Source: Marinobacter sp. C7 | GTDB taxonomy: Bacteria; Pseudomonadota; Gammaproteobacteria; Pseudomonadales; Oleiphilaceae | DNA length: 64,000 nucleotides | Assembly (NCBI RefSeq): GCF_022343555.1 | Contig: NZ_JAKQZH010000001.1 | Span: 1,054,001 to 1,118,000, forward strand | Direction of reading: 5' to 3' | In this document: positions 2,866-51,418 of the stretch, piece after piece | Layout: the number at the start of each line of letters is the position of its first letter | How positions within the stretch are numbered: position 1 is the first letter of the stretch | The notes under the pieces: model-generated | The model's database searches: none | Told to the model about the DNA's origin: nothing | The model's input: only the letters and a program-made list of their open reading frames with translations | Position numbers and translations under genes: made by a program

Positions 2866-3028
2866 GGGGTCTGATGAATACTTTCATCTGACCCCAAGTG
2901 GAGACCCTGACCATGTGCTCAATGTCATACTCAGGGGTCTGATGAAGGCTTTCATCAGACCCCAGCCTGGACCCTTGGCTTGTGCTCAAATCCAACTCGG
3001 GGTCTGAAGAAGGCTTTCTTCAGACCCC
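2866..3028. repeat. Palindromic repeat cluster between lptB and rpoN (3 copies)
   Basis: Three 30-bp copies of the GGGGTCWGAWGAA / TTCWTCWGACCCC palindrome lie at 2866-2895, 2934-2963 and 2999-3028. The first two are the GATGAA type and the third the GAAGAA type. They take up most of the 345-bp gap 2701-3045 between two genes of the same strand; the rest of the gap shows nothing recognisable. Positions outside the arms share the lead-in CTCAGGGG or CTCGGGG. Confidence 0.95.
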
Positions 3029-3045
3029 TGGGGGAGGGCCCACCC

Positions 3046-3771
3046 TTAAAGCCGGAACTCGTTCCCCAGGTACACCTCTTTCACCTGCTGGTTTGCCAGA
3101 ATCTCCTCCGAGCTCCCGGAGGCAATGATGTGCCCCCCGGAGACGATGTAGGCGTTCTCGCAGATATCCAGCGTCTCGCGCACGTTGTGGTCGGTGATCA
3201 GGACACCGATGCCCTTGTCCCGCAGGTGCCGGATGATGTGCTTGATGTCGCTCACCGAGATCGGGTCAACGCCGGCGAAAGGTTCGTCCAGCAGGATGAA
3301 GGCGGGCTCCATGGCCAGGGCCCGGGCGATTTCCACCCGGCGACGTTCGCCACCGGACAGGGCCATGCCGACACTGTCGCGGATGTGGGTGATGTGGAAT
3401 TCCTCAAGCAATTCATCGAGCTTGGCATCCCGCTCGGCGCGGCTGAGGCCCTTGCGGGTTTCCAGAATCGCCATGATGTTGTCCCGCACGCTCAGCTTGC
3501 GGAATACCGAGGCCTCCTGGGGCAGGTAGCCAATGCCCTTGCGGGCGCGACCGTGCATGGGCAGCGGCGTGATGTCCTGGCCGTCGATGGTGATGCGGCC
3601 GCGATCGGCAGGCACCAGGCCCACGATCATGTAAAAGCAGGTGGTCTTGCCGGCGCCGTTGGGACCGAGCAGTCCGACGATTTCGCCACTCTGGATTTCC
3701 AGGGAAACGTCGATTACCACCTTCTTTTGTTTGTAGCTCTTTGCCAGGTTACTGGCTCTCAGTACTGCCAT
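3046..3771 (-). CDS. lptB: LptB, ATPase of the LPS transporter
   Basis: The 241-residue ABC ATPase starts at ATG 3771 ([13 protein letters not shown]); a longer in-frame version would read back into lptA and is unlikely. It shows Walker [10 protein letters not shown] (about 36-44), the signature LSGGERRR and Walker [14 protein letters not shown]. LptB powers LptFG to extract LPS from the inner membrane and push it along the Lpt bridge. It overlaps the end of lptA, placing it in the kdsD-kdsC-lptC-lptA-lptB operon. Confidence 0.97.
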
Positions 3772-4300
3772 CGGATCCCTGTCTGGTGCTGCGGGGCTGG
3801 ATAACCATTTCAACCCGGCCAGTGCCGGATCCCGTGTCTTGTCCGCCCTCGGCGGTAACCACCCGGCGAACCGTATCGTAATGGATCAGGTCGCCACGGA
3901 ACAGGTTGCCATTCTGCTCAATCACCGCCTCCCGTTCAAAGGTCAGCTGCCGGTCGCTGGCGGACCAGGTGATGTTGAGGGCCCGGGCGTCGGTTTCACC
4001 TTCGCCGTTCCGGGTCGGCTGGGTGTAATGGGCCGGGGCGCCGGAGGCCTCGATGCGTTTCAGACCTTCGGTGCTGCGGTACAGCACCACCCGTTCGGCG
4101 GTCAGCCGGGTCTTGCCCTGGGTCAGGATGACATCGCCGCTGTAGGTGGCCACGCCTTTGCTGTCGTCCAGGCGGGCGCTGTCGGCGCTGACCGTGATCG
4201 GCTGGTCGGAGTCCAGGTCGAAGGCCAGCGCAGGGCTGCTGATGGCCAGCGCCAGCAGGGCGGCGAGCACGCCGGAAGGGTGCTTATTGAACGGTTTCAT
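3749..4300 (-). CDS. lptA: LptA, periplasmic LPS transport protein
   Basis: The 183-residue protein begins with a signal peptide (hydrophobic stretch [15 protein letters not shown], cleavage before FDLDSDQP). The OstA/LptA beta-jellyroll follows, including the typical [23 protein letters not shown] start. LptA oligomers bridge LptC and LptD and carry LPS across the periplasm. It overlaps lptC by 17 bp and lptB by 23 bp, consistent with translational coupling. Confidence 0.96.
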
Positions 4301-4889
4301 AACGTCCTTCCACGTCGGAGTTGAGCTCCAGAATTCGGTCGTTGATCCAGGCTTTCATGCCGGTGGCACGGGTGACGCCGATACGATCGGTGATCTCCAC
4401 CGGAGCGTCGGTATAAATGATGCTCTGGTCGTTGTCCAGCGTAAGCTTCGATGTCGTCAGGGTCGCTTCACGCTCGCCAATCTGACGGATGATACGCACG
4501 TTGTCCGTGAGATACAGCAGGTTCTCGTTCTGCAGCAGGCTGCCGTTGTCCGCCTCGATGGTCCAGGGTGGGGTGTCCGGCTCGCCATAGAGGCGTGCAG
4601 TGGGAGAGACCATGGTGGCCACGTTGCCCTCGTCGAATTGTTCGATCCTGGGGCTTGAGAAGTGCACTTCGAGATTGCCGTTCTCGTCATACGAGGTGTA
4701 GGTGCCGTCCACCACAAAACCATCCGGTTCCGCCGGGCCGCGCAGGGCGGCAGCTTCAGGGTCCGGCGCCGCCGGTTCGTCGCTGCGCCAGAGCAGGAAC
4801 AGGGCGGCGGCAATCAGGCTGATCAGCGCGAGCGTCCGCACCAGCGGGCGCTCGGTGATTTGCCAGAGGGACTCCAGGGGGCTGGTCAT
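4284..4889 (-). CDS. lptC: LptC, inner-membrane-anchored LPS transport protein
   Basis: The start chosen is ATG 4889 (MTSPLESLWQ), which overlaps the kdsC stop by 4 bp (ATGA). A longer in-frame reading lies wholly inside kdsC. The 201-residue product has one N-terminal membrane helix (about residues 19-34, TLALISLIAAALFLLW) and a periplasmic LptC domain. It docks LptA onto LptB2FG. The tight overlaps on both sides support the operon. Confidence 0.94.
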   Translation of the reverse strand: MTSPLESLWQITERPLVRTLALISLIAAALFLLWRSDEPAAPDPEAAALRGPAEPDGFVVDGTYTSYDENGNLEVHFSSPRIEQFDEGNVATMVSPTARLYGEPDTPPWTIEADNGSLLQNENLLYLTDNVRIIRQIGEREATLTTSKLTLDNDQSIIYTDAPVEITDRIGVTRATGMKAWINDRILELNSDVEGRYETVQ

Positions 4890-5455
4890 CCGTCTGGCTC
4901 CAGGTAGGGTGCGAGTGCGTCGGTCAGCTTGTTCCGAGCGGTCAGGATCAGATCGCAGGCCTCCCGCACGGCGCCACTTCCGCCGGCCACGCTCGTGCAA
5001 TAATCCGCGTGCTGCTGTACCAGCCAGTAGCCATTGGGCACAGTGATACCCAGGCCGGCATAGCGCAATGCCGGCAGATCGGGCAAGTCATCGCCCATAT
5101 AGGCGATTTCCCCGGGGCTGACGTCCAGGGTGCTGACCAGTTCCTGCAGCGCCACTTTCTTGTCCTCGCGGCCCTGCATCAGGTGCGGGATGCCCAGATC
5201 GTTCATGCGCTTTTCCGTCAGTGGTGAGCGCCGACCGGTGATGACGGCCACAGTGATGCCGGCGGCCATCAGCTGTTTCAGGCCAAGGCCGTCCAGAATG
5301 TTGAAGCCCTTGAGTTCGTCGCCGTTGGCACTGAAATACAGTTTGCCATCGCTCATGATGCCGTCCACGTCCAGCGCGATCAGCCGGATACGGGCTGCCT
5401 TGGCAAGAAGGTCCCCAGGCCAGCGGTCCATGAGCGGGCTGGTCAGTTCGGCCAT
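4886..5455 (-). CDS. kdsC: KdsC, Kdo-8-phosphate phosphatase
   Basis: The 189-residue HAD-superfamily protein carries DVDGIMSDG (motif I, nucleophile Asp), VITGRR (motif II), and MGDDLPDLPAL (motif IV). It lacks a large cap domain, as C0-type KdsC enzymes do. It dephosphorylates Kdo-8-phosphate to Kdo for lipid A core synthesis. The start shares one base with the kdsD stop. Confidence 0.96.
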   Translation of the reverse strand: MAELTSPLMDRWPGDLLAKAARIRLIALDVDGIMSDGKLYFSANGDELKGFNILDGLGLKQLMAAGITVAVITGRRSPLTEKRMNDLGIPHLMQGREDKKVALQELVSTLDVSPGEIAYMGDDLPDLPALRYAGLGITVPNGYWLVQQHADYCTSVAGGSGAVREACDLILTARNKLTDALAPYLEPDG

Positions 5456-11281: not shown

Positions 11282-11929
11282 ATGACAGATTCCATCACCA
11301 TCGCCTTGTCGAAGGGACGAATTCTCGAAGAAACCCTGCCGCTGCTGGCGGAAGCCGGCATCGAGCTGGTGGACGACGTGAAGAAATCCCGCAAGCTGGT
11401 GTTTCCGACCACCGATCCGGACGTTCGCGTACTGATCATCCGCGCTACCGACGTGCCGACCTATGTCCAGTACGGTGGTGCGGATCTTGGTGTGACCGGC
11501 AAGGATGTGCTGATGGAGCATGGTGCGGAGGGCTTGTACGAGCCGCTGGACCTGAACATCTCCCGCTGCCGCCTGATGACCGCCGGACCGAAAGGGCAGA
11601 CACCGCCGAACGGTCGTATCAAGGTGGCCACCAAGTTCGTCAACCTGGCTCGAAGGTACTATTCCGCCCAGGGCCGCCAGGCCGATATCATCAAATTGTA
11701 CGGGGCGATGGAGCTGGCGCCGATCCTTGGCCTGGCCGACGAGATCGTCGACATCGTCGATACCGGCAACACCCTGAAGGCCAACGGCCTTGAGGCCCGG
11801 GACCTGATCGAGCACATCAGCAGCCGTCTGGTGGTCAATCGCGCGTCCATGAAGATGAAACACGGGCGGATTAACCCCATAATCGAAAAGATGGCCGAAG
11901 CCGTAGAGAAGCGCCGAGAAGAAAAGTAG
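11282..11929 (+). CDS. hisG: HisG, ATP phosphoribosyltransferase (short form)
   Basis: The 215-residue enzyme starts [20 protein letters not shown] and contains [10 protein letters not shown]. It is the short form without the C-terminal regulatory domain, which needs HisZ; no hisZ is in the window. It catalyses the first step of histidine synthesis. The TAG stop (11927-11929) provides the first G of a palindromic repeat, so the repeat abuts the gene with no spacer. Confidence 0.96.
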
Positions 11930-12137
11930 GGGTCAGAAGAAAGCCTTCTTCTGACCCCGGGAACCTGGAACCGGCTCTGAAGTGAAATTGGGGTCAGATG
12001 AAAGCTTTCATCTGACCCCGCGTTTCGGCCGCGACTGCAATAGTCAGGGGTCTGAAGAACGCTTTCTTCTGACCCCGGTAAGTAAGAGTTGGCCCTGAAT
12101 TGAAGTTGGGGCCAGATGAAGACGTTCATCTGGCCCC
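11929..12137. repeat. Palindromic repeat cluster between hisG and hisD (4 copies)
   Basis: Copies lie at 11929-11958 (GAAGAA type), 11990-12019 (GATGAA type), 12047-12076 (GAAGAA) and 12108-12137. The last has GGGGCC in the left arm and GGCCCC in the right arm. Both changes keep base pairing, a compensatory pair. The first copy starts on the last base of the hisG stop codon. Confidence 0.95.
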
Positions 12138-13489: not shown

Positions 13490-13567
13490 GGGGTCAGATG
13501 AAAGCTTTCATCTGACCCCGGTTTCACCCCCAACTCAGGGGTCAGAAGAACGCCTTCTTCTGACCCC
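13490..13567. repeat. Palindromic repeat pair downstream of hisD (2 copies)
   Basis: A perfect GATGAA-type copy is at 13490-13519 and a GAAGAA-type copy at 13538-13567, both between hisD and hisC. They are followed by an unrelated longer inverted repeat. Confidence 0.95.
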
Positions 13568-15588: not shown

Positions 15589-15671
15589 GGGGTCAGAAGA
15601 ACGCCTTCTTCTGACCCCATGTTCTGCGCCAACTCAATGCAGGGGTCTGAAGAACACTTTCTTCTGACCCC
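15589..15671. repeat. Palindromic repeat pair between convergent nif3-like and zapG genes (2 copies)
   Basis: GAAGAA-type copies lie at 15589-15618 and 15642-15671, between the stop of the nif3-like gene (+) and the stop of zapG (-). No T-run follows either copy, so they are not standard intrinsic terminators. Confidence 0.95.
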
Positions 15672-17500: not shown

Positions 17501-17759
17501 GGGGTCTGAAGAACTTCGTTCTTCTGACCCCATCTTGGAATCAAACTCCGAGCCAAACCGCGAACACGGGGTCAGAAGAAAGCTTTCTTCAGACCCCAAT
17601 GTCGAACCCAACTCAGGGGTCTGAAGAACTCGTTCTTCTGACCCCAACTTCAACCCATACTCAGGGGTCTGATCAACTTATTGATCTGACCCCAAGTTAA
17701 ACCAACCCCCAACATCAAAAACTAAAAAAGGGGTCAGATGAACAAGTTCATCAGACCCC
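17501..17759. repeat. Palindromic repeat cluster between zapE and thiolase (5 copies)
   Basis: Copies are at 17501-17531 (31 bp, 5-nt centre), 17568-17597, 17616-17645, 17664-17693 and 17730-17759. The fourth is the only GATCAA/TTGATC variant, with both arms changed together. The 318-bp gap 17474-17791 is almost filled. An in-frame ATG inside the last copy (17738) reads into the thiolase gene but is not its likely start. Confidence 0.95.
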
Positions 17760-19004: not shown

Positions 19005-19232
19005 GGGTTCAGATGAAAGCCTTCATCTGACCCCATTTTCCCCTCCCGCCCAGGCACGATCCCAAACCGGGGTCAGAAGAACGCTTTCTTCTGACCCCTT
19101 TTTTACCCTCCCACCGAATCAAGACGGCTACCCCGGGGGTCTGAAGAAGCTTTTCTCTTCTGACCCCATGTTCAGCTCGTATGGCGTCAGCGTTCGAATT
19201 CTGGGGTCAGATGAAGGCTTTCATCAGACCCC
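19005..19232. repeat. Palindromic repeat cluster downstream of thiolase (4 copies)
   Basis: Copies lie at 19005-19034 (left arm GGGTTC, one mismatch), 19069-19098, 19136-19167 (32 bp, longer centre) and 19203-19232. The copy at 19069 is followed by six T residues and could also act as a terminator. The rest of the 529-bp gap, 19233-19505, is repeat-free and must hold the promoter of the DUF1302 gene, but no convincing -35/-10 pair was found. Confidence 0.93.
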
Positions 19233-22734: not shown

Positions 22735-22755
22735 GCCAACTCCGGGGTCTCCCCA

Positions 22756-22943
22756 GGGGTCTGATGAAAGCCTTCATCTGACCCCGTCTTTGATCTAAAC
22801 CCGGGGTCAGAAGAAAGCGTTCTTCTGACCCCACCCTGAAAGTCTTCACCCCAGGGGGCTCACCCCAGGGGTCTGATGAAAACCTTCATCTGACCCCATC
22901 TTTGACCTGACTCCGAGTCAGAAGAACAAGTTCTTCAGACCCC
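22756..22943. repeat. Palindromic repeat cluster between DUF1329 and LuxR genes (4 copies)
   Basis: Copies are at 22756-22785, 22803-22832, 22868-22897 and a decayed one at 22914-22943, whose left arm begins CGAGTC instead of GGGGTC. The remaining gap 22944-23103 upstream of the LuxR gene shows nothing clear. Confidence 0.93.
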
Positions 22944-23103
22944 ACCCTCACCGCAAACTTTTGCAGCCCAACCCCCTCTTGGTTTAACCTTCCTCTCATA
23001 CTAAAGGCGTACCCAAAGCCGGTCGCCACTCAAAAGTCATTGGGTTCTTCCAATTGCGGCTCAGGACGTTTCGCCGTCCAGCCGGTTGTCAGCGGGGCAG
23101 TGT

Positions 23104-25822: not shown

Positions 25823-26120
25823 GGGGTCAGAAGAACGCTTTCTTCTGACCCCAACTTAGGCCCCCAACTCCTCAGTCAGACCTGAAAATGGGGTCAGATG
25901 AACGCTTTCATCTGACCCCAACTTAGGACCCCAACGCCTCAGTCAGACCTGAAACCGGGGTCAGATGAACGCTTTCATCTGACCCCAACTTAGGCACCCA
26001 ACTCCTCAGTCAGATCTGAAACCGGGGTCAGATGAACGCTTTCATCTGACCCCAACTTAGGCACCCAGCTCCTCAGTCAGATCTGAAACCGGGGTCAGAT
26101 GAAGGCCTTCATCTGACCCC
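25823..26120. repeat. 67-bp tandem array of the palindromic repeat (5 copies)
   Basis: Palindromes start at 25823, 25890, 25957, 26024 and 26091, exactly 67 bp apart. The 37-bp spacers are nearly identical (AACTTAGG...CTCAGTCAGA.CTGAAA). The first copy is the GAAGAA type and the other four the GATGAA type. The array fills the gap between the convergent LuxR-type and acyltransferase genes. Spacer identity argues for local duplication, and excludes a CRISPR array. Confidence 0.96.
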
Positions 26121-33573: not shown

Positions 33574-34299
33574 TTAACAGACGGTTAGAACTTCGACACG
33601 CTTCTCCCCGTGCTCTGTTACAAACCGGAACCGGACGTTCACATCGTACAGGTGCGCCCCGTAAATCCGTTCCTCATCCCGCCCGCGCCGGAACGATGGC
33701 CGGGGATCATAGCTCACCACATCCTCGATCAACGCCCGGAAGTCCGGGTAGTCCTCCGGGGCCAGATCAGCCAGCTGCCGCTCCGCCTCCGGCAAAAACA
33801 CCACCGCCAGCTTCTCGGTCGGTGGCGAATCCGCCCAACCCAGACTCGCCTCCGGCACCGAATCCGCAAACGGCAGGTAAGGCTTGATATCCAGAATCGG
33901 TGTACCCTCGATCAGATCGTGGTTGCTGATCCGCAACACCAGCCGCCCATCCCGACGCGCCAGCCCCTCGTTCCGCACCACCGACAACCCCAGACTGTTC
34001 GGCCGAAACGGCGACCGGCTGGCAAACACCCCCATCTTCCTGTTGCCCCCGAGCCGCGGTGGACGAACCACCGGCTTCCACTCCGCCCGAACCGCCTCAT
34101 GGAACTGGAAAATCACCCAAAGGTGAGACGCCGTCTCCAGCCCCCGAAACGCATCCTCACGGTCGTAAGGGGGCTGAATCACCAACTCCGCATACGCATG
34201 CCGGGTCAGCCCCGGCTGCCGAGGCACCCCGAACTTGTCCTTGAAGCAGGACCTGGTGATAGCAACAGGGGTCAGAAGAACGCTTTCTTCTGACCCCAA
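33574..34299 (-). CDS. trmO: TrmO, tRNA m6t6A37 methyltransferase
   Basis: The core ITRSCFKDKFGVPRQPGL and HLWVIFQFHEAV, RPPRLGGNRKMGVFA, RSPFRPN and DIKPYLPFADS match TrmO (YaeB). It N6-methylates t6A37 of tRNA(Thr). The core needs residues before ITRS, but the only in-frame starts there are TTG 34299, inside the end of a palindromic repeat, or GTG/TTG further up. From TTG the product is 241 residues, like the E. coli protein, with residues 2-10 encoded by the repeat. The frame could also extend to GTG 34380. Confidence 0.9.
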   Translation of the reverse strand: MGSEESVLLTPVAITRSCFKDKFGVPRQPGLTRHAYAELVIQPPYDREDAFRGLETASHLWVIFQFHEAVRAEWKPVVRPPRLGGNRKMGVFASRSPFRPNSLGLSVVRNEGLARRDGRLVLRISNHDLIEGTPILDIKPYLPFADSVPEASLGWADSPPTEKLAVVFLPEAERQLADLAPEDYPDFRALIEDVVSYDPRPSFRRGRDEERIYGAHLYDVNVRFRFVTEHGEKRVEVLTVC

Positions 34300-34462
34300 T
34301 CCAGCGCCAACCCCGGGGTCTGAAGAACGCGTTCTTCTGACCCCATTTTCAGATTCATCTCCCAAACCCAACTCCACCACAGGGGTCTGAAGAAATCTTT
34401 TCTTCTTCTGCCCCCGAGTTAAAAATCAAATTGGGGTCAGATGAAAGCCTTCATCAGACCCC
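34268..34462. repeat. Palindromic repeat cluster upstream of trmO (4 copies)
   Basis: Copies lie at 34268-34297, 34315-34344, a decayed copy at 34382-34415 and 34433-34462. The first lies within the trmO reading frame. In the minus-strand frame the repeat reads G-S-E-E-S-V-L-L-T-P and leads straight into the conserved TrmO core. Confidence 0.93.
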
Positions 34463-35556: not shown

Positions 35557-36262
35557 AATCCACCAGGAACTTCTCGTGCAATTCACGAACCTGACGCTCC
35601 ACATCATCCATGGGCCGATTATTATCAATAATAGCGTCCGCTCGCTCCCTGCGCTTCTCCCGAGGCATCTGAGCCGCAATAATCCTCTCCACCTGATCCC
35701 GCTCATTGGTATCCCGGGCCATCGTCCGCTCAATCTGCGTCTCCACCGGGACATCCACAACAACGATCTTGCTGACCAGGTTATGCTGATCCGTCTCCAG
35801 CAGCAGGGGAGAAACCAGAAGCACATAGGGCAGGGCATAGCCCCCAGGTCTGAGCTGGCGGATCAGCTCTTCCCGAATCATGGGATGGAGCAGGGCTTCC
35901 AGCCAGGTGCGCTCTTCAGGATTGGCAAACACAATCTGGCGCAATTGCGCCCGATCCAAGGTGCCTTCATCGGTGAGGATATCCTCACCAAAGTGCTCAA
36001 CAATTTCCGCAAGGCCAGGGGTGCCGGGTTCAACCACCTCGCGAGCCACATCATCGGCGTCCACCCAGTGGACCCCAAGCTCACCAAACATACGAACCAC
36101 GGTAGATTTCCCGGAGCCAATCCCCCCTGTAAGACCCACGACCACGGGGGCAGACGCCGAAGACGGGGTCAGATGAACGCTTTCATCTGACCCCACTTTC
36201 ACGTCATCCCCCGAGGTCTGGCCCACCCCAGGGGGCGGATGAACTCGTTCATCTGACCCCAT
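35549..36262 (-). CDS. coaE: CoaE, dephospho-CoA kinase, with repeat-encoded N-terminal extension
   Basis: The kinase core is intact: VVVGLTGGIGSGKSTVVRMF (P-loop), DADDVAREVVEPG, LLHPMIR and VVDVPVETQIERT. It phosphorylates dephospho-CoA, the last step of CoA synthesis. In front of the P-loop are about 40 extra residues encoded by two palindromic repeats. ATG 36262 follows AAGGA by 7 bases and is used here (237 aa); ATG 36280 (AGGG 7 upstream) and GTG 36196 (215 aa, closer to the usual 206) are alternatives. All of them translate at least one repeat. Confidence 0.9.
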   Translation of the reverse strand: MGSDERVHPPPGVGQTSGDDVKVGSDESVHLTPSSASAPVVVGLTGGIGSGKSTVVRMFGELGVHWVDADDVAREVVEPGTPGLAEIVEHFGEDILTDEGTLDRAQLRQIVFANPEERTWLEALLHPMIREELIRQLRPGGYALPYVLLVSPLLLETDQHNLVSKIVVVDVPVETQIERTMARDTNERDQVERIIAAQMPREKRRERADAIIDNNRPMDDVERQVRELHEKFLVDFG

Positions 36263-36375
36263 GTTGATTTCCTTACTCATGCTCAAACCCTAAAAACGGG
36301 GTCAGAAGAAAGCCTTCTTCTGACCCCAATTTCACGCCCACCCCAGGGGTCTGATGAACTTGTTCATCTGACCCC
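36165..36375. repeat. Palindromic repeat cluster at the coaE/pilD junction (4 copies)
   Basis: Copies lie at 36165-36194, 36231-36260 (left arm GGGGGCGGAT, partly decayed), 36298-36327 and 36346-36375. The first two are read through in the coaE frame on the minus strand, giving G-S-D-E-S-V-H-L-T-P and G-S-D-E-R-V-H-P-P-P. The last two lie in the gap before the pilD stop. Confidence 0.94.
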
Positions 36376-37287: not shown

Positions 37288-37365
37288 GGGGTCAGATGAA
37301 GGTTTTCATCTGACCCCGGTTTTGAGGTCTAACCAAGGGTCAGAAGAACGCTTTCTTCTGACCCC
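37288..37365. repeat. Palindromic repeat pair between pilD and pilC (2 copies)
   Basis: Copies lie at 37288-37317 and 37336-37365 (first base A, so the last pair is lost). They fill the 125-bp gap between pilC and pilD. Confidence 0.94.
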
Positions 37366-40467: not shown

Positions 40468-40497
40468 AGGGTCAGATGAAAGCTTTCATCTGACCCA
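40468..40497. repeat. Single palindromic repeat upstream of pilA
   Basis: GATGAA-type copy with terminal bases A at both ends in place of G/C, so 28 bp are palindromic. It is the last copy before a 9-kb region free of the repeat. Confidence 0.9.
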
Positions 40498-40664: not shown

Positions 40665-40752
40665 TAATCTCCCTTACGCTAAGCGCGTTGCCGAAGGGCC
40701 GGTGTCCTTCGGAGCTATGGAAACGAAAACGACAACTCTAGAGGTCGATAAC

Positions 40753-41196
40753 ATGAAAGATGTTCAAATGAAGCGTGGCCAGCAGGGCTTTACTCTCATT
40801 GAATTGATGATTGTGGTTGCAATCATCGGTATTCTGGCCGCGGTGGCTATTCCTGCCTATCAGGACTACACCATTCGGGCCCAGGTGTCCGAGGGTATGA
40901 ACCTTGCTGGTGGAGCTAAGACCGCAGTTGCAGAGTTCTACACCCAGCGCGGAACCATGCCGACCAATAACTCCCAAGCTGGTCTGGCTGCTAACTCCGA
41001 TATTAGCGGTACTTACGTCTCCGCTGTAACAGTAAGCGCCGGTTTGATTACTGTAGAATATGGTAATGACGCGAACACTATCATCAAAGCCGAAACCCTG
41101 CTCGTTTCTCCGGTTACCAATGCTGGCTCTGTCGCTTGGAACTGTAAGCCGGGCACTCTGGCTACCAAGTACCTGCCATCAGACTGCAGGCAGTAA
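40753..41196 (+). CDS. pilA: PilA, type IV major pilin
   Basis: ATG 40753 gives a 12-residue basic leader (MKDVQMKRGQQG), then the mature start FTLIELMIVVAI with the conserved Glu5. The hydrophobic N-terminal helix is followed by a globular C-terminal domain closed by two cysteines (CKPG...SDC), a D-region disulfide. Mature length is 135 aa. It is cleaved by PilD and assembled by PilB/PilC, all encoded next door. A terminator follows. Confidence 0.95.
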   Translation: MKDVQMKRGQQGFTLIELMIVVAIIGILAAVAIPAYQDYTIRAQVSEGMNLAGGAKTAVAEFYTQRGTMPTNNSQAGLAANSDISGTYVSAVTVSAGLITVEYGNDANTIIKAETLLVSPVTNAGSVAWNCKPGTLATKYLPSDCRQ

Positions 41197-41230
41197 TACA
41201 GCAGCTAGAAAAGCTGTCGTATTTAGTGAT

Positions 41231-41255
41231 AAGGCCCGCGTATGCGGGCCTTTTG
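41231..41255 (+). terminator. Intrinsic terminator after pilA
   Basis: GGCCCGC (41233-41239) and GCGGGCC (41244-41250) form a 7-bp stem with a 4-nt loop, followed by TTTTGTG. It separates pilA from the GT-C gene, whose ATG is at 41281, so the latter is read by readthrough or from its own start. Confidence 0.85.
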
Positions 41256-41280
41256 TGTTTGATGATGCTTTGGGTTAATT

Positions 41281-43212
41281 ATGCAATTAGAGCGCAAACA
41301 ATTAGTTTTGGTCGGTCTTTGGTATTTGCTTCTAGTTGCTGCTTACTTGGTCTATGAGCAGGGGATAAATAACAGGTTTTATTTCGATGATTACGCTAAT
41401 CTTCCTGCGTTAGGTGAAACAGGGGAGGTAGATAGTTTTGAGGACCTAAAGGTCTATGTCCAGAGTAACGCTGCTGGTCCTACCGGCCGACCTATATCTG
41501 TATTGTCTTTTCTAATTGACGATAATACGTGGCCTAGTAATGCTTCTGAGTTCAAAGAGACCAATCTTTTAATTCATTTGCTCATTGGTTGCTTAGTGTT
41601 TTGGGCAAGCATTTTGATCATAGAGGCCCTTACAAAGATTAGGCCTGAATTTGGTCTTCCATGGTGGTCTTCGATCTTGGTCGCGGGATTTTGGCTGGTT
41701 AACCCTTTACATGTCTCGACTGTATTGTACCCCGTCCAGCGGATGGCGCAGCTGTCTACTCTTTTCACAGTGGCGGGCATTCTGGCTTTTCTAAAGATCC
41801 GGCCATTGATATCTCGGAAGGCAAAAGCCGGTGTGCCGCTTCTTTTCGCCTGTCTAACGCCGCTTTATTTTTTGGCTGTCTTTTCTAAAGAAAATGGCGT
41901 GTTGCTACCGTTGTTTTTGCTAGTTTTAGAAGTGTTCGTTCTCCGCAAAGCTTATCCGATGAATCCGAAATTGGATTTGGTGTTTCGAGTCTGCGTATGG
42001 GGGGTACTCGCCTGTATTCTTGGCATTATTCTCTATAAGGCTAGCGTGAATGGGTGGTTCACGGCCTACCCGGGACGAGATTTTACTCCTCTTGAGCGAT
42101 TGATTACTCAGCCGTTGGTTTTGTTTCTTTACCTTAGGGAGCTTTTTATTCCAGGGCTTTACACGCCAGCCCTTTATTACGATGATTTTCAGCATTTGAC
42201 CCTGTCGAATTATGGTCAAGTTCTTTTCTACTTGGTTGGCTTGCTGGGATTAGCTTTCTTCGGGTTCAAAGGTCTCAAGCAATCGAAGCCATATGGAATC
42301 GCTTTTTCATTCTTTTTGGTTGGCCATCTGCTGGAGTCAACGGCGCTGAATCTCGAGCTCGTTTTCGAACATAGAAATTATCTAGCGTCAGCTTTTATAG
42401 GATTCGTTCTGCTATCGATTGTGATGCTTCTCCGTCGAACTCGAATTCCTGCTGTCCTTGTGCCTCTGTTGGTACTGCTCCTTTATCCGTTGCCCACTTT
42501 GACCCGTGCTCAACTCTGGGGCGAGCCACTTGAGTTTGGCGCTGTTTTGGCAAAACTCTCGCCGCATTCTATCAGGTCGCAAATCGAGCTGAATAACGCA
42601 CTCGTTGACTATGGGATGATAGAAAAGGCGAGGAGCCATATGCGGCAGGCAACCATGACAAATCCTGAATCGCTTTACCTTGCTATTCATATGGTGCTTC
42701 TGGATTGTATGGAGAGCATTGATCAATCGGATAGTTACGAGAAGTTGATTGCCCTGGCAAGTGAGCAATCATTCGATGGAAGGAACCGGCTCGCGATTGA
42801 CGCCCTTTGGAAATTTATGGAGAGAAAGCAGTGTAACCGTATCAATCCGGAGTTCTTTAATGAGCTGATTGATGCTTTTCACATCGGGGAAACCGTGGGG
42901 AAGACTCAAAGTGAGGCCTCGCGCCGAGGGCTGAGAATCATAACCCAGCGCTTCTATCTCCGTTATCCAGAGTTTGCTCCTGGAGAGATACAGCCGTTAT
43001 CTCGTGTTTTGGAGAGCAGAAATCCTGAATATCTTATGCTCTCAGCCGCTACTGTCGCCTCCGTTGGCCGTTACAGGGAGGCGTTAATGCTGGCGGATCG
43101 GGCGAGAGAGCTAGTTCTTGAGGGAGAGCTGGGAACCTCCAATCGAAGCAAGCAGAGTTTCTTGATGGAAATTGAGAAATTTCAGGATACTGTCCGAGCT
43201 GACCTTGACTAA
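41281..43212 (+). CDS. GT-C membrane glycosyltransferase, TMTC-like, candidate pilin O-glycosyltransferase
   Basis: The 643-residue protein has about ten membrane helices in the first 420 residues, then a hydrophilic helical tail that may be TPR-like. Early motifs YFDDYANL (Asp36/Asp37), TGRPISVLSF and the loop VFEHRNYLAS match the GT-C fold of TMTC/ArnT-type mannosyl- and glycosyltransferases, which use polyprenyl-phosphate sugars. It follows pilA directly and is followed by a polyprenyl-phosphate GT2, like pilin glycosyltransferases in Pseudomonas (TfpW, PilO). Role inferred from context. Confidence 0.72.
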   Translation: MQLERKQLVLVGLWYLLLVAAYLVYEQGINNRFYFDDYANLPALGETGEVDSFEDLKVYVQSNAAGPTGRPISVLSFLIDDNTWPSNASEFKETNLLIHLLIGCLVFWASILIIEALTKIRPEFGLPWWSSILVAGFWLVNPLHVSTVLYPVQRMAQLSTLFTVAGILAFLKIRPLISRKAKAGVPLLFACLTPLYFLAVFSKENGVLLPLFLLVLEVFVLRKAYPMNPKLDLVFRVCVWGVLACILGIILYKASVNGWFTAYPGRDFTPLERLITQPLVLFLYLRELFIPGLYTPALYYDDFQHLTLSNYGQVLFYLVGLLGLAFFGFKGLKQSKPYGIAFSFFLVGHLLESTALNLELVFEHRNYLASAFIGFVLLSIVMLLRRTRIPAVLVPLLVLLLYPLPTLTRAQLWGEPLEFGAVLAKLSPHSIRSQIELNNALVDYGMIEKARSHMRQATMTNPESLYLAIHMVLLDCMESIDQSDSYEKLIALASEQSFDGRNRLAIDALWKFMERKQCNRINPEFFNELIDAFHIGETVGKTQSEASRRGLRIITQRFYLRYPEFAPGEIQPLSRVLESRNPEYLMLSAATVASVGRYREALMLADRARELVLEGELGTSNRSKQSFLMEIEKFQDTVRADLD

Positions 43213-43239
43213 ACTTTTACTCACGAACAGGGCACTGTC

Positions 43240-44094
43240 ATGACTACCTTGTCGGTTGTAATTCCCGCGAAAAATGAAGCTACCAGCCTTGTAAGCCTGC
43301 TACCGAGACTCAAGGAGGCGGTACCAGACTCGGAAATAATAATTGTCAATGACGGCTCCACGGACGAGACCGCACAAATTCTGACTCCGTTTGAAGTTAA
43401 GGTAATCACCCACAGTGATAGCAGGGGTAACGGGGCGGCAATCAAGTCGGGCGCTAGAGCCGCTTCAGGCGACATAATTGTTTTTATGGACGCTGACGGT
43501 CAGCACGATCCTAAGCATATTCCCCTGCTAGTAGAGCGGATCAGACAAGGAGATGACTTGGTGGTCGGGGCCAGGAACAAAAAGGGTCAGGCGAGCGTGG
43601 GCAGGGGATTAGCAAATGCTTTTTATAACTGGTTCGCGTCTAAAGTTACCGGGTTTCGGATTCAGGATTTGACGTCCGGTTTTAGGGCTGCAAGGGCAGA
43701 AAAGTTCCGCGAATTTCTGCATCTTCTCCCAAATGGGTTTTCTTACCCAACGACAAGCACCATGGCATTCCTTCGGAGTGGCTTCCAAGTTTCATATATT
43801 CCGATTGAGGTAAGTCGCAGAGAAGGAAAGAGCCACATTAAACCAGTAAAAGATGGAATCAGATTTCTCATAATTATTTTTAAAATTGCGACACTTTATG
43901 CGCCTCTCAAAGTATTTCTTCCTATATCGGCTGTTAGCTTTGGTTTAGGGTTAGCGCGTTATATTTACACGTATATGACGATGGGCACCTTTACTAATAT
44001 GTCTGCTTTGCTTTTTGTGACAAGTGTTCAAATATTTTTGATCGGCTTAGTGTCAGAGCAAATTACGTCTCTAATATACAAAGACGTTAAATAA
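43240..44094 (+). CDS. Polyprenyl-phosphate glycosyltransferase (DPM1/ArnC-like GT2)
   Basis: The 284-residue enzyme has the GT2 N-terminal fold SVVIPAKNEA, the DXD motif MDADGQHDPKHI and conserved SGFRAARAEKF. Two C-terminal hydrophobic segments (KVFLPISAVSFGLGLARYIY and ALLFVTSVQIFLIGLVSE) fit membrane anchoring. Relatives transfer a sugar from a nucleotide donor to polyprenyl phosphate. Placed after the GT-C gene, it would supply that enzyme's lipid-linked sugar (inference). Confidence 0.82.
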   Translation: MTTLSVVIPAKNEATSLVSLLPRLKEAVPDSEIIIVNDGSTDETAQILTPFEVKVITHSDSRGNGAAIKSGARAASGDIIVFMDADGQHDPKHIPLLVERIRQGDDLVVGARNKKGQASVGRGLANAFYNWFASKVTGFRIQDLTSGFRAARAEKFREFLHLLPNGFSYPTTSTMAFLRSGFQVSYIPIEVSRREGKSHIKPVKDGIRFLIIIFKIATLYAPLKVFLPISAVSFGLGLARYIYTYMTMGTFTNMSALLFVTSVQIFLIGLVSEQITSLIYKDVK

Positions 44095-44149
44095 ATGTTA
44101 ATAATCGGTGTGTTTGCCTTGATTAAGTTTACTAGCGGTGGGGTAGCGC

Positions 44150-44845
44150 ATGATTAAATCTCCAAAACTAAGGCGAATTTATACGTACGTGGTCCCGCAT
44201 TTCATAAGAGGGCGCCTAGAAGTTTGGATTGCCGGGAGATATCCAAAGATTTTCGATGAGAAGAAATTTGTTTTTATTCACATTCCGAAGACAGCGGGAA
44301 AATCAATAGGCAAACTGATCGGCTTGCGTGGAGCGTGTCATCTCACAATGGCTGAATATGAAGAAATTATTGGGAGGGAGCGATTAAAGGAGTATTTTTT
44401 ATTCAGTGTTGTTCGTGATCCGGCTGAGAAAATAGTCTCTGCCTGGAATTACATTATGACCGGTGGGAATCAATCGAAAGAGGATATCGAACTTAGAGGT
44501 GAGCTTCTTAGCGTTTCAAGTAATTTAGAGGATTTTATTACAGATCAGCTAGGTCGAAACAGATATTTGAATCATCGGCTGTTCAAATCGCAAAAAGACT
44601 ATCTGAGTTTTTCGGACGGGCATATTCCTGAAAACCTTTACCTAATTCATATTAACCACCTGTCAGAAGGGCTGGAGGCTTTGCCTGAAAGGGTTTTAAG
44701 AGCCTGTGTAAAGCTGCCTCATGAAAATCGTTCCCGTACTGCGGTTCCCGGTTTGTCTGCGAATGCTCGACAGATTCTTGTGGAGGTATACAGACAAGAC
44801 TATGAGATGATTGAGCGTCTGCAGTCTGAATCCAAATTTTTATGA
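44150..44845 (+). CDS. Sulfotransferase family protein
   Basis: The 231-residue protein has the 5'-phosphosulfate-binding loop HIPKTAGKSIG near residue 43 and the 3'-phosphate motif FSVVRDPAEKIVSAWN near residue 83, as in PAPS-dependent Sulfotransfer_2 enzymes. It would sulfate a carbohydrate hydroxyl. It is read in the same direction as the GT-C/GT2 genes and is AT-rich. Confidence 0.82.
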   Translation: MIKSPKLRRIYTYVVPHFIRGRLEVWIAGRYPKIFDEKKFVFIHIPKTAGKSIGKLIGLRGACHLTMAEYEEIIGRERLKEYFLFSVVRDPAEKIVSAWNYIMTGGNQSKEDIELRGELLSVSSNLEDFITDQLGRNRYLNHRLFKSQKDYLSFSDGHIPENLYLIHINHLSEGLEALPERVLRACVKLPHENRSRTAVPGLSANARQILVEVYRQDYEMIERLQSESKFL

Positions 44846-44865
44846 CCGTAAAATTACTGAGATTT

Positions 44866-46134
44866 TTAGTGGCAGTCCCGTTTTAAAAAGCAAAAAGTAA
44901 AGAAACCTAATTTTTTCCAAACTTGTAATGTGAGCGTCAAGTTTAAAATTATTATGGATACTGCAGTTGCAACAGCGCTGCCCCACAAACCGAAAGATTG
45001 CGTCATATACAGACAAAGCACGATGGAAAACGCTGCAACTATCGCGGTAGTCTTCAAGACGGCCTTTTCATTCCCCGTCATTGTGAGAATGTTCTGGACG
45101 GAGCCACACATAACGCTTATGAGCTGAGAGAATGCGAGTATTATTAGAATACCGCTGCTGGTAGTGAAACCTTCGCCGAACAATGACATGATTTGCTTTG
45201 GAAGCATCGATATGAGCAGGAAAATAATTAATGATAATGCGCCAGAGTATTTGATTGATCTGTCGCTAAGCCTGATCAGTCCTTTTAAGTTTGACTGTTT
45301 GTAAAGGGTCGCAAATCTAGGGGCAAGAAACGCATTTGCTACGACTAACGAAAAGGCTGTTATCATCGCTGCACGCTGGGCGACGTTAAGTGTAGCAACC
45401 TCATCTGGGGCGAGTAGCGCTCCTGCGATGAGTGTGCTGCTCCAAATTAAAAGTTGAGTAAAGAGAGTGGAGAGCCACAAAGAACCGAAGCTGGATAAGG
45501 AAATCTGGTAATCACCGGTTGTTTTGTCAGTTGTGGAGGATGCGCTGCCAGATCTCGCAATAATTCGCAGTGCGAAAATAAGTAATGCTCCGGTCGCTAG
45601 GGTCAGAGCATTAGAGAGTTCGATGCTTGTTTTAATGCCCATGCCCATTATAGTGATTAAGAGCAATATGCTCCAAGAGCTGGTAGCGAATAGCTCAGAC
45701 GTAAAAATCATTCTTAGGCCCTGAAAATATTTTCCAGCTAACCATAGGCATGATAGAAAAATCGTTGCCGGACTCATGGCTTGGAGCGTGGCGAAAAGCT
45801 GTGGTTTTGCAAACAATGAAATAGCAATTGGCTCAGCAAACAGGTAGCAAATCAAGGCGAATAGGGACGACAAAGAAAACGATACAGCTGTATATTTAAA
45901 AAATATCTTCCGGGAGTTTCCGTTCTCAGCCGCAGATAGCGCAGTGTTTTTCAGAAGCAGAACGTCGAGTCCTGCCCTTGAGCCGGTAACAAGCAGCATG
46001 ATGAGAGTGAAGGATAGAAAAAAGTATCCAGATTCGGTTGGTCCGAGTGCCCTCGCTGCTATAAGGTAGAATAGATAGGTTGCGAGTACACTTCCGCCTT
46101 TACCCAGCGCTGCGAGTAATGGACCTTTAAGCAT
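44866..46134 (-). CDS. Wzx-type polysaccharide flippase
   Basis: Start ATG 46134 (MLKGPLLAALGKGG) gives 422 residues with about 12 membrane helices of the MOP/Wzx superfamily; a longer in-frame version would overlap the GT4 gene. It would flip lipid-linked oligosaccharide across the inner membrane. It overlaps the end of the GT4 gene by 8 bp, an operon pair. Confidence 0.82.
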   Translation of the reverse strand: MLKGPLLAALGKGGSVLATYLFYLIAARALGPTESGYFFLSFTLIMLLVTGSRAGLDVLLLKNTALSAAENGNSRKIFFKYTAVSFSLSSLFALICYLFAEPIAISLFAKPQLFATLQAMSPATIFLSCLWLAGKYFQGLRMIFTSELFATSSWSILLLITIMGMGIKTSIELSNALTLATGALLIFALRIIARSGSASSTTDKTTGDYQISLSSFGSLWLSTLFTQLLIWSSTLIAGALLAPDEVATLNVAQRAAMITAFSLVVANAFLAPRFATLYKQSNLKGLIRLSDRSIKYSGALSLIIFLLISMLPKQIMSLFGEGFTTSSGILIILAFSQLISVMCGSVQNILTMTGNEKAVLKTTAIVAAFSIVLCLYMTQSFGLWGSAVATAVSIIILNLTLTLQVWKKLGFFTFCFLKRDCH

Positions 46135-47302
46135 TATCGAAAACACACTCGGAAACCTGCTTTCCGAATACCTCCCACCTGAATTCATCGGCGAAAGACT
46201 TCATTTGATCTGCAGGAAAAACAACCTTACCGTCAAGTATATCGCATACCCTGCATGAAAATTGCGTATAATTTCCGGAGGCGATTAAAAGACCAGATAC
46301 CCCCTCGGAAACTGCGTCGACCACTCCACCTTCGGCGAAAGCAACCGTGGGAACCCCCCAGGCTGCTGACTCAATGGCGACCATGCCAAATCCCTCCATA
46401 TCACCCTCGATGGGAATCAGCGGAAATACATGCACGTCTGCTGCCCGATAAAGTGAGGCTAGTTCCTCTTCTGAGATTGGACCCATAAGCCTTACATTAT
46501 GAGAGACTCCCGCAGTGCGAGCGGCGTTTTCAATTTCTTCTTTTGTGACATGGTTTTTCAGCAAGGCGTGCTTAGGAACCGATCCGGCCACCAGAAACAT
46601 AGTTTCCGGGTGTCGGGCGACGATTTGAGGCAGCGAATGCTGAATGAATTCTTTAACACCTTTGCGCCGTGTAAGTCTTCCAACTGATATTAAAATCGGA
46701 TGGCCAGGCAGACTCTTCTCCGTTGCCAGCTGTGTTACGGATGAAGATCTTAGGTCTGTTTCTGGTATGTCGACTCCGGGATGTATTACAGAGATCTTCT
46801 CACCGGGCATCCCGGCATCGATACAATGGCGCTTTGTGGCAGTGCTGTTGGCAATCCAAAAATCCGCGCGTCGAATGAGAGGTAGAAAGATTGCTCGATA
46901 AAGGGGGCTCTTTACTACGACATCCAATCCATGAAGATATACCCCCAATCGCGCTCCGGAGAGTTTTGCCAGAACGAAAGCAGGCGGTGCGGTTACTCCG
47001 CTGCCCGCCAAAACCACATCTATGCGAATGCTAAACCGGGCTTTTAAAGCCAAAATAAAGGATTTTGCGATTGCGCATGCCAAAAACAGTGATGCCGATG
47101 AGGGGCAGGTCAGCACCTTGTCTGCTTGTGGCGCGAAGTCCTCCGCACCACGCGGAGCAAGAATCTTCACCTTGAAATAGCGGGCTACCTCTTTTGCCAG
47201 GTTTTGATTCAGTCTCTCCATCCCTCCCCGTACCGGAGGGAAGTTTCGAGTTATAAGAACCAGCGTTTTTGTTTGTTCTGTGGCCTGCTTCGTGGTTTTC
47301 AA
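46127..47302 (-). CDS. Family GT4 glycosyltransferase
   Basis: The 391-residue protein starts at TTG 47302, preceded by GAGG at seven bases, with no earlier ATG. It has the two Rossmann halves of GT-B enzymes: LVLITRNFPPVRGGMERLNQ, then ISVGRLTRRKGV and EGFGMVAIESAAWGVPTVAF (E-x7-E motif). It transfers a sugar to a glycan intermediate; the donor is not predictable from the sequence. It is paired with a flippase. Confidence 0.87.
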   Translation of the reverse strand: MKTTKQATEQTKTLVLITRNFPPVRGGMERLNQNLAKEVARYFKVKILAPRGAEDFAPQADKVLTCPSSASLFLACAIAKSFILALKARFSIRIDVVLAGSGVTAPPAFVLAKLSGARLGVYLHGLDVVVKSPLYRAIFLPLIRRADFWIANSTATKRHCIDAGMPGEKISVIHPGVDIPETDLRSSSVTQLATEKSLPGHPILISVGRLTRRKGVKEFIQHSLPQIVARHPETMFLVAGSVPKHALLKNHVTKEEIENAARTAGVSHNVRLMGPISEEELASLYRAADVHVFPLIPIEGDMEGFGMVAIESAAWGVPTVAFAEGGVVDAVSEGVSGLLIASGNYTQFSCRVCDILDGKVVFPADQMKSFADEFRWEVFGKQVSECVFDNA

Positions 47303-47515
47303 GCTACAACCTCGTGGTGCTTGCGTTAGGGTGTGACAATACGGCCTATTCTACTCTTTTGGGGACTTGTTTGAGAGAATGGTGTCTCGACAAAGCTGGC
47401 CAGTATGTTACCGAATTTTGGCGATCTCCGTGCACTCTGGAGCGCTGGTAAGCTATGACAACGTTTTTCCGGAATCATTTTTTGATTGGTGGGGCGTGTA
47501 ATTAAGGATTAAGCA

Positions 47516-48232
47516 ATGATATCTCATAAACATAAATGTATTTTTGTCCATATTCCGAAATGTGGCGGGCAAAGTATTGAGGATATTTTTATTCGAGAAA
47601 ATGGTTTGACCTGGAAAACCAGGGCACCCTTGCTGCTGAGAAAAAATCGGGATCAAAAAAAAGGGCCTCCTAGGCTAGCTCATCTCACATACGTTGAGTA
47701 CATTTCTCTAGGCTATATATCACCCAAAATGATGAAAGAATATACCAAGTTCTCGATTGTAAGAGACCCTTATAAGCGTGTCGAGTCGCTATACAAGTTT
47801 TTGGGCTACGATGCTGCCATACCGTTCGAACGCTTTATTTGTGAAATTTTTCGGCCTCAGATGGAAAATAAGGGTAAGCTCCACTGGTTTTTAAAGCCAC
47901 AAGTAGACTACCTTCGGGATGAGTATGGTGTGATTAAGGTTGATCATGTTGTAAAACTCGAGCAGCTGTCGGAGGAGATGCCTAAAGTTTTGGAAGAAAT
48001 CGGCTTAAAAGTAGATAAGATTCCACATATCAATAAGAGTTCCGCAAGGGGGAAACTAAAGACCCTGGCTTTTAGGCTTTTTCACGCTATTAACGGCTGC
48101 TTTACGTGGGCATTAAACGTAGATAGTGAGATAGCGTGGACTGAAGATTTGCTGACCGTCGTTAATGAATATTATGCTGATGACTTCGATCAGTTCGATT
48201 ATAGCCGCCGCCTTCAGATAACGACTTCCTGA
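47516..48232 (+). CDS. Sulfotransferase family protein
   Basis: The 238-residue protein begins with FVHIPKCGGQSIEDIFI (PAPS-binding loop) and has FSIVRDPYKRVESLYKF, the 3'-phosphate motif. It is the second such enzyme in 3.4 kb. Its 3' end overlaps the 3' end of the convergent metallo-beta-lactamase gene by 19 bp. The base composition is lower in G+C than the flanking housekeeping genes. Confidence 0.83.
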   Translation: MISHKHKCIFVHIPKCGGQSIEDIFIRENGLTWKTRAPLLLRKNRDQKKGPPRLAHLTYVEYISLGYISPKMMKEYTKFSIVRDPYKRVESLYKFLGYDAAIPFERFICEIFRPQMENKGKLHWFLKPQVDYLRDEYGVIKVDHVVKLEQLSEEMPKVLEEIGLKVDKIPHINKSSARGKLKTLAFRLFHAINGCFTWALNVDSEIAWTEDLLTVVNEYYADDFDQFDYSRRLQITTS

Positions 48233-49622: not shown

Positions 49623-49803
49623 GGGGTCAGATGAAAACCTTCATCTGACCCCATTTTCAAGTCTAGCGCGGGGTCAGAAGAACGCTTTCTTCTGACCCCT
49701 GTTTTAATAATGGTACTATGGCGTAAAAACGGGGTCAGATGAAAGCGTTCATCAGACCCCAGAGTTAAGAATAGGGGTCTGAAGAACGCCTTCTTCTGAC
49801 CCC
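49623..49803. repeat. Palindromic repeat cluster upstream of cysQ (4 copies)
   Basis: Copies lie at 49623-49652, 49670-49699, 49731-49760 and 49774-49803, within the 258-bp gap between the metallo-beta-lactamase gene and cysQ. Confidence 0.95.
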
Positions 49804-49833
49804 AGGTTCACGTTCACCCCCAGGGACACCCCC

Positions 49834-50601: not shown

Positions 50602-50614
50602 TGCGGATAACTCA

Positions 50615-50757
50615 GGGGTCCGATGAACTCGTTCATCTGACCCCAGCTTAGCGCCAAACCAAAGAATCTGGCGGAACTCAGGGGTCTGATGAAAGCTTTC
50701 ATCAGACCCCAACTTAATGCCCAAAACGGGGTCAGAAGAAGGCTTTCTTCAGACCCC
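50615..50757. repeat. Palindromic repeat cluster between cysQ and rfaH (3 copies)
   Basis: Copies are at 50615-50644 (left arm GGGGTCCGATGAA), 50681-50710 and 50728-50757. Confidence 0.95.
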
Positions 50758-50789
50758 TCGTTAGTTCCACCCAACCAAACGGATTTGAA

Positions 50790-51269
50790 ATGACCTGGTA
50801 CGCCGTCCAACACAAACCCGCCCAAGGCGATCGAGCCCTCCAACACCTCCAGAACCAGGACATCCCCTGCTTCTACCCGAAAATCGAGGTAGAGAAAATC
50901 AGGGCGGGAAAGCGCATCAAAAAGCTGGAGCCTTTGTTCCCCGGCTATCTCTTCGTCAACCTCGAGCAAACCGACCCCGTCTGGGCCAAGCTCCGCTCCA
51001 CTCGCGGCGTTATCCGCGTCGTCGGCTTCGCCAACAAGCCGGCACCCATCGAAGATGACGTCATCCAGCACATCAAAGACAGCTTGGACAAAGTGGCCGA
51101 AAAAGGCGGCATCAAAGCCGGCGAGCCAGTCGAGCTGGACGATGGCCCCTTCAAAGGCCTCAGCGCCATCTTCCAGTCCTACGATGGAGAGGAGAGGGCG
51201 ATCGTGCTCATCAACTTCATGCAGAAGCAGCAGATGGTGAAGGTGCCAGTCGCATCGATTCGGCGGTAG
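50790..51269 (+). CDS. rfaH: RfaH, operon-specific transcription antiterminator
   Basis: The 159-residue NusG-family protein starts MTWYAVQHKPAQGDRALQHL and has the RfaH-like FPGYLFVNLE and a C-terminal KOW domain. RfaH is recruited to RNA polymerase at ops sites and suppresses termination in long surface-glycan operons. A perfect ops site lies 403 bp past its stop, inside the first gene of the polysaccharide operon, making the target obvious. Confidence 0.9.
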   Translation: MTWYAVQHKPAQGDRALQHLQNQDIPCFYPKIEVEKIRAGKRIKKLEPLFPGYLFVNLEQTDPVWAKLRSTRGVIRVVGFANKPAPIEDDVIQHIKDSLDKVAEKGGIKAGEPVELDDGPFKGLSAIFQSYDGEERAIVLINFMQKQQMVKVPVASIRR

Positions 51270-51278
51270 GTCAAACAT

Positions 51279-51418
51279 GGGGTCAGAAGAACGCCTTCTT
51301 CTGACCCCCTTTTTAAAACTCAGGGGTCTGATGAACTCCGTTCATCTGACCCCAACTTCAACAAACCCCGGAGAATAACTCCAAGCGCGGGGTCAGAAGA
51401 AAGCGTTCTTCAGCCCCC
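51279..51418. repeat. Palindromic repeat cluster downstream of rfaH (3 copies)
   Basis: Copies lie at 51279-51308 (followed by CTTTTT, terminator-like), 51323-51353 (31 bp) and a decayed 51389-51418. These are the last copies in the window. The rest of the 370-bp gap, 51419-51639, holds the promoter and leader of the polysaccharide operon; no confident promoter was found. Confidence 0.93.

Follow-up and report, generated by a model that had tools for sequence, protein, structure and literature searches.

What are the palindromes that crowd the gaps between genes in this part of the Marinobacter sp. C7 genome, and what made them? The stretch analyzed here, hereafter the window, is 64 kb of contig NZ_JAKQZH010000001.1 (assembly GCF_022343555.1, positions 1,054,001 to 1,118,000), in which a 30-nt palindrome recurs again and again. 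Our answer, to which we give a probability of about 0.88, is that the palindromes are a REP/REPIN-like family of Marinobacter (REP, repetitive extragenic palindrome; REPIN, REP doublet forming a hairpin), most likely made by the REP-associated tyrosine transposase (RAYT) whose single gene they flank. The observations in support are the family itself, its extragenic position, its flanking of the RAYT gene, the co-occurrence of high copy number with one RAYT clade, a distinct palindrome beside most RAYTs of the sister clade, a pile-up of copies around the RAYT, alternating mismatched neighbors, and arrays that change in length between species at shared sites. We infer, by analogy with related enzymes, that the RAYT would cut, join, and spread the palindromes. 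Genomes are referred to by survey handles, with G000 being the source genome.

The palindrome has a 13-bp stem with a GGGG/CCCC foot. Exact copies were defined by the pattern GGGGTCWGAWGAA-N(3-7)-TTCWTCWGACCCC, and diverged copies in the window were counted at up to 5 mismatches. The window holds 39 exact copies, compared with 0.00 in 100 dinucleotide-preserving shuffles. At up to 5 mismatches the total is 50, spanning 2866-51418 in 15 clusters of 1-5 copies, identical to a count made by eye in the first-pass annotation of the window. That annotation also gave a center of 4-5 nt, which holds for most copies (4 nt) and for two exact ones (5 nt) but not for two diverged copies with 6 and 8 nt. 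Its division of the arms into half GAAGAA and half GATGAA agrees with the 71 and 59 of 131 copies that we counted in 304 kb of G000, and the one GATCAA copy it saw in the window lies at 17664.

Perfect copies are predicted to fold at about -22 kcal/mol as RNA and -13.7 kcal/mol as DNA, and copies with a mismatch at position 7 at about -17 and -10 kcal/mol (five and three copies folded). Both as DNA and as RNA, arrays of such units would fold into strong hairpins. The copies with T...T at position 7 are the reverse complements of those with A...A, and the mismatch therefore supplies an orientation. The perfectly symmetric A...T form cannot be oriented by mismatch; it accounts for 62 of 131 copies in G000, 10 of 60 in G115, and 4 of 67 in G039. 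In oriented palindromes, the consensus of one flank is C-N-C-A and that of the opposite flank is A-W-N-T-T. Where adjacent palindromes both carry the orienting mismatch, 75 pairs are inverted and 18 direct (93 pairs, three genomes). The most frequent spacer between a T...T copy and a following A...A copy is 35 nt (11 of 20 in G039, 7 of 15 in G115, and 5 of 16 in G000, where a 17-nt spacer is equally frequent).

We then looked at where the copies lie. A search of the whole 4.06-Mb assembly (108 contigs), which the first-pass annotation had suggested, returned 336 exact copies, and the reversed pattern did not occur. Genes were predicted with a home-made finder trained on Pfam-supported genes, giving 242 genes that cover 82% of the 304 kb around and including the window. 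There, 130 of 131 palindrome centers (up to 4 mismatches) fall outside predicted genes, and gaps between genes of all orientations are used, as had been described from the window. Convergent gaps are the richest, with 12 of 22 loaded and 38 copies in 5.2 kb. Divergent gaps are loaded in 6 of 28 cases (15 copies in 7.2 kb) and co-directional gaps in 25 of 124 (77 copies in 41.4 kb, a length that is overestimated because the finder missed low-GC genes).

The window itself has no RAYT gene, as the first-pass annotation stated. The sole one in G000, its single PF01797 (Y1_Tnp) gene, lies 42.2 kb past the window end at C25:1160204-1160848 on the minus strand by full protein match, with the domain match at C25:1160480-1160809. 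Exact palindromes bracket this gene: within about 300 bp there are three on its upstream side and two on its downstream side. The tentative first suggestion of a link to GGGGTCAG palindromes near RAYTs is thus borne out by the same palindrome on both sides of the gene. At codon 99, after 98 open codons, the frame has a TAG in place of the Trp of an LWEGRF motif found in relatives, ahead of the catalytic Tyr120 (residue numbers are those of the G039 protein). The stop is one TAG at a conserved Trp, and a sequencing error is possible.

Some relatives carry an intact copy of the gene. The G039 protein scores 64.3 bits against PF01797 (cut-off 23) and 72.9 bits against NF047646 (REP_Tyr_transpos), under the cut-off of 80. 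With its HuH motif (H60-V-H62) and catalytic Y120-IEL-NP, read from the sequence, and its PF01797 domain, it has the hallmarks of an IS200/IS605-like Y1 (HuH) transposase. A search of solved structures gave no match at E 0.001. RAYT genes with the same arms in their flanks, which the first-pass annotation had proposed looking for, are found in G000 and eight relatives. The intact genes of G039, G115, and G114 have the same palindromes on both flanks, and G101, G103, G121, and G127 also have palindromes on both sides. In the flanks of these last four, the palindrome is often nested within a larger one, GGGGTCAGATGAA-NTT-GGGGTCAGATGAA..., possibly an older form. The G002 gene is split into two parts near two contig ends (C8:1-100 and the end of C42), with palindromes beside each part. 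These parts run into other DNA after about residue 103-107 and before residue 98, respectively, and the gene was probably interrupted by an inserted element or insertion sequence. The interrupting sequence at the two parts shares GTTGTCCA in inverted orientation. The palindromes are not the ends of one transposon, an origin the first-pass annotation had allowed for.

Next, we surveyed the genus with 120 genomes, one per species. Exact copies are absent from 94, number 1-20 in 16, and number 38-376 in 10. A RAYT of this clade (at least 68% identity) is present in 9 of the 120, and every one of these has a high count: 376 in G039, 370 in G115, 343 in G002, 336 in G000, 237 in G114, 101 in G101, 87 in G103, 63 in G127, and 38 in G121. 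Among the 111 genomes without it, 110 have 0-20 copies. No exact copies were found in 36 genomes from other genera of the order. Among the matches listed, named genome contigs with copies are Marinobacter records plus one metagenome-assembled genome labelled Halomonas sp. SAT58, which is perhaps mislabelled. The seven unbroken palindrome-flanked RAYTs form one clade (support 98/95) in a tree built without E. coli, from which G030, G120, and G043 (no open reading frame, ORF) and the broken genes of G000 and G002 were left out. In a separate tree with E. coli RayT as outgroup, the E. coli branch had a length of 10, too long to place.

The sister clade of RAYTs (21 genes, 44-55% identity) has a palindrome of its own. 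None of its members has the first palindrome within 450 bp, and 17 of 21 have a GGGGTCAGACCCC...GGGGTCTGACCCC palindrome within that distance on at least one side (up to 4 mismatches). This count took the wrong ORF for G117, where an exact copy lies 68 bp from the true RAYT. The sister palindrome, GGGGTCAGACCCC-N27-GGGGTCTGACCCC, is about 53 bp and GGGGTCAGA-based; it thus has the same GGGGTCAGA start as the first palindrome and likewise flanks a RAYT, but it is longer and has another inner stem. Of the 120 genomes, 23 have 1-27 exact copies: 14 belong to the 21 of the sister clade, four are G005, G122 (5), G152, and G153, and five are of the first clade, with 1 copy each in G000, G002, G039, and G115 and 2 in G101. 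Among these last five, the inner part is unrelated in the matches that could be read (G002, G101, and G115). Neither palindrome lies beside the four genes examined from another set of RAYTs (about 35% identity).

Copies also pile up in the part of the chromosome that holds the RAYT. In G000, 108 of the 336 exact copies fall in the 304 kb around the gene, and copies in the window are 8.2 times as dense as elsewhere in the genome. In G039 and G115, the 40 kb that include the RAYT contain 45 and 40 copies. G101, a genome in one contig, has 28 of its 101 copies at most 150 kb from the RAYT, where 7 are expected, and G103 has 14 of its 87 at most 60 kb away, where 2.3 are expected. G103 has a second hot spot of 15 copies at the region homologous to the window, identified by its NIF3-family gene, 637 kb from the RAYT (C1:1907039-1986186); it was probably left behind through rearrangement. 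RAYT and NIF3 share a contig in 5 of the 9 genomes with this RAYT clade, at 57, 80, 91, 98, and 637 kb (G103), and in 17 of 21 sister-clade genomes, 15 of them at 20-60 kb, with G026 at 183 kb and G099 at 199 kb. This proximity across both clades suggests that the RAYT locus is probably old and mostly inherited vertically, with the window as its neighborhood. The pilus and exopolysaccharide genes between NIF3 and the RAYT likely arrived later.

Known REPs, BIMEs (bacterial interspersed mosaic elements), and REPINs belong to the RAYT (TnpAREP) systems of E. coli, Pseudomonas, and Stenotrophomonas, as described in PMC2817692, PMC3116915, and PMC8266576. The Marinobacter family resembles them in being extragenic palindromes of 20-50 nt in hundreds of copies that flank a RAYT, in the alternating orientation of adjacent copies, and in a copy number that tracks RAYT presence. 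A pile-up within 200 kb of the RAYT is reported for three marine gammaproteobacteria in PMC2817692, and the Marinobacter copies too pile up near theirs. Reasoning from the TnpAREP/RAYT enzymes that have been studied, we would expect the RAYT to recognize the 30-nt hairpin when the DNA is single-stranded, to cut next to it, and to insert copies with a preference for the surroundings of its own gene.

However, unlike those repeats, the Marinobacter palindrome has no adjoining GTAG or GTGG beside its GGGG/CCCC-footed stem. Neither tetranucleotide stands 5' of the palindrome, and position -4 is a G in 5 of the 57 G000 copies that could be oriented. The residues of E. coli RayT that recognize GTAG are given as Trp94, Gln95, Glu100, His101, and Arg104 in PMC6006769. 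In our alignment with the G039 protein, Trp94 is kept, and Gln95, Glu100, His101, and Arg104 are replaced by Glu, Ser, Cys, and Asp (0 of 4 kept).

In a second reading, possible although we hold it to be doubtful, the palindromes would not be REPs but the terminal inverted repeats (TIRs) that bound a TIRYT-type element (in the sense of De Nocera et al. 2013), with single ends amplified on their own. TIRs beside TIRYT genes carry a GGGGWSAS motif, according to PMC3733652, and the GGGGTCAG arm fits it; the GGGGTCTG variant does not. As with those TIRs, a RAYT-like gene lies between inverted copies, and dimers and clusters occur; the sister RAYTs carry the longer GGGGTCAGACCCC repeats. The loss of Q95, E100, H101, and R104 also fits, as subclass 2.1 (RAYT group 1), to which TIRYT genes are mostly assigned, is reported with different motifs in PMC6006769. 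However, every Marinobacter copy forms an entire 30-bp hairpin by itself, there are hundreds of them, and most stand in alternating arrays as in REPs and BIMEs, whereas TIR families have been called just moderately abundant. Subclass 2.1 is further reported in PMC6006769 to lack REP-like sequences nearby. The choice between TIR and REP is partly a matter of naming, and the same mechanism would be expected. Given REP/REPIN-like behavior, no GTAG, and a fit to GGGGWSAS, we regard the family not as a GTAG REP but as a variant that borders on both REPs and TIRs.

The first-pass annotation knew of no named family with this sequence. Likewise, in the searchable literature, outside which most subscription journals lie, no published family matched this exact sequence and no description of these repeats in Marinobacter was found; the nearest are REPs and REPINs and, from PMC3733652, the GGGGWSAS TIRs of TIRYT genes. 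Marinobacter is absent from the main text of PMC3733652, PMC8266576, PMC6006769, and PMC8049555, and other RAYT papers among the matches listed make no mention of it. A literature search for the string GGGGTCAGA gave unrelated titles among the matches listed.

The clusters in the window are given below in order, in positions of the 64-kb stretch.

2866..3028, array 1, three palindromes at 2866, 2934, and 2999
11929..12137, array 2, four palindromes at 11929, 11990, 12047, and 12108, between an ORF ending at 11929 and histidinol dehydrogenase
13490..13567, array 3, two palindromes between histidinol dehydrogenase and an aminotransferase
15589..15671, array 4, two palindromes 3' of the NIF3-family gene in a convergent gap
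17501..17759, array 5, five palindromes between an AFG1-like ATPase and a thiolase, including the GATCAA copy
19005..19232, array 6, four palindromes between the thiolase and a DUF1302 gene
22756..22943, array 7, four palindromes 3' of a DUF1329 gene
25823..26120, array 8, five palindromes in the convergent gap that separates a MalT-like regulator from an acyltransferase
34268..34462, array 9, four palindromes
36165..36375, array 10, four palindromes
37288..37365, array 11, two palindromes
40468..40497, cluster 12, a single diverged palindrome at the edge of a low-GC pilin/glycosyltransferase island
49623..49803, array 13, four palindromes
50615..50757, array 14, three palindromes
51279..51418, array 15, three palindromes

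The initial G of array 2 doubles as the final base of the stop codon of the upstream ORF. Array 8 has an exact 67-bp period, and its five perfect A...T copies are in direct tandem as judged by their flanks. No Rfam family reached its gathering score in a scan of the window. Palindromes are nearly absent from the low-GC island at 40702-48232 (43-47% GC), which contains a type IV pilin, a 643-aa protein with no Pfam match, glycosyltransferases, and two sulfotransferases. The exopolysaccharide genes at 56486-62927 (Wzz/Wzc-like tyrosine kinase, pyruvyl transferase, and glycosyltransferase) are palindrome-free. Beyond the window, we take the neighbors of the G000 RAYT, by the look of their sequence, to be a small H-NS/MvaT-like gene and a nucleotide-sugar dehydrogenase.

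We compared array sites between relatives. Every comparable site carries arrays in both partners, and few have equal copy numbers: 5 of 17 comparable sites (of 44) between G000 and G039, 6 of 20 (of 44) between G000 and G115, and 4 of 15 (of 21) between G039 and G115, the closest pair at 94% identity. The first-pass annotation had considered that copies might be missing from the homologous gaps of close relatives, and we find that the high-copy relatives carry arrays at shared sites. Around NIF3 (20 kb), copies number 20-28 in the three high-copy relatives that were fetched, 4 each in G101 and G103, and 2 in G121. Of the 11 that lack this RAYT among those fetched, G056 has a single copy and the other 10 have none. 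In comparisons with the genomes at 77-79% identity, 14 of the 17 fetched, several gaps are empty, with junctions too diverged to give target bases. Many genomes without copies have a much shorter gap at two of the seven places (11.9 and 25.8 kb) but not at others, such as that at 19.0 kb. Shared sites with differing lengths suggest that the arrays were probably seeded before the high-copy clade split, and that their length keeps changing, by the enzyme or by plain recombination.

Could the host instead keep the palindromes for transcript termination or mRNA 3'-end protection, with the RAYT merely a neighbor? We consider this improbable. The predicted RNA hairpins are indeed strong, and convergent gaps are the most loaded. 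At the DUF1329 gap (22734-23086), an intrinsic-terminator-like hairpin with a T-run is present in 14 of 14 array-free relatives and in 0 of 4 array-bearing high-copy genomes, G000 among them; at another gap, a terminator-like site is present in 3 of 5 array-bearing genomes and 0 of 13 others. However, the flank consensus AWNTT means that no T-run follows the palindrome as a rule, and divergent gaps carry copies too. Terminators are not generally lost at arrays, being found at 4 of 24 co-directional gene ends with arrays and 6 of 45 without, and at 4 of 20 convergent gene ends with arrays and 0 of 8 without. A terminator swap was seen in just 1 of 7 compared gaps. We considered general replacement of terminators by arrays and rejected it, as the pattern is clean at the DUF1329 gap alone and follows no overall rule. 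A host role would also leave the pile-up around the RAYT unexplained, and 94 of 120 genomes of the genus do without an exact copy. Any effect of arrays on transcript ends is likely a side effect. Chance or an assembly artifact is an explanation of negligible probability, since the shuffles yielded no copies, other assemblies have arrays at orthologous sites, and named public Marinobacter records contain copies.

Several observations weigh against a REP/REPIN-like family made by the RAYT. The palindromes lack GTAG, the defining tag of most REPs. The pile-up around the G000 RAYT is patchy: its 20-kb bin has 29 copies and the adjoining bins 2 and 6, a separate broad peak of 60 copies occupies five 20-kb bins centered 57-137 kb to one side (the window and before), and there are almost no copies outward from the bins centered at +63 kb and -157 kb. 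G139 holds 167 copies and no RAYT was found in it, in a genome just 88% complete. The sister palindrome is loosely tied to its RAYTs, with no exact copy in 7 of 21 genomes and five copies in G122, which has no such RAYT. Genome comparisons, including that of the 15 comparable sites (of 21) between G039 and G115, revealed neither transposition nor excision and no clean empty site. As arrays are present in both partners at 15 of 15 sites, insertion at new sites would be old or rare, and recombination alone could change array length. Lastly, the RAYT of G000 is truncated and that of G002 interrupted, yet each genome holds more than 330 copies. Among the five genomes with the most copies and this RAYT, the gene has a stop codon in G000, is interrupted in one, and is intact in three. 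The stop and the interruption suggest that arrays appear to outlast the enzyme. As the G000 stop precedes the catalytic Tyr, spread of the family by this gene is predicted to have ended in G000.

Tentatively, and at somewhat less than even odds, we propose that this RAYT system swapped the GTAG guide for a GGGG-footed hairpin, that the guide-reading residues and the tag changed together, and that the sisters diverged with their own palindromes. If true, Marinobacter would offer a natural series for the change in specificity of a domesticated transposase and its repeat, including lineages with a dead enzyme but a living array population. The palindromes add a large, clearly RAYT-linked repeat family without a GTAG tag. 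As the sister RAYTs have a different palindrome in a largely shared chromosomal neighborhood, which residues read which repeat is directly testable. Furthermore, Marinobacter allows the fate of a REP population to be studied after RAYT loss.

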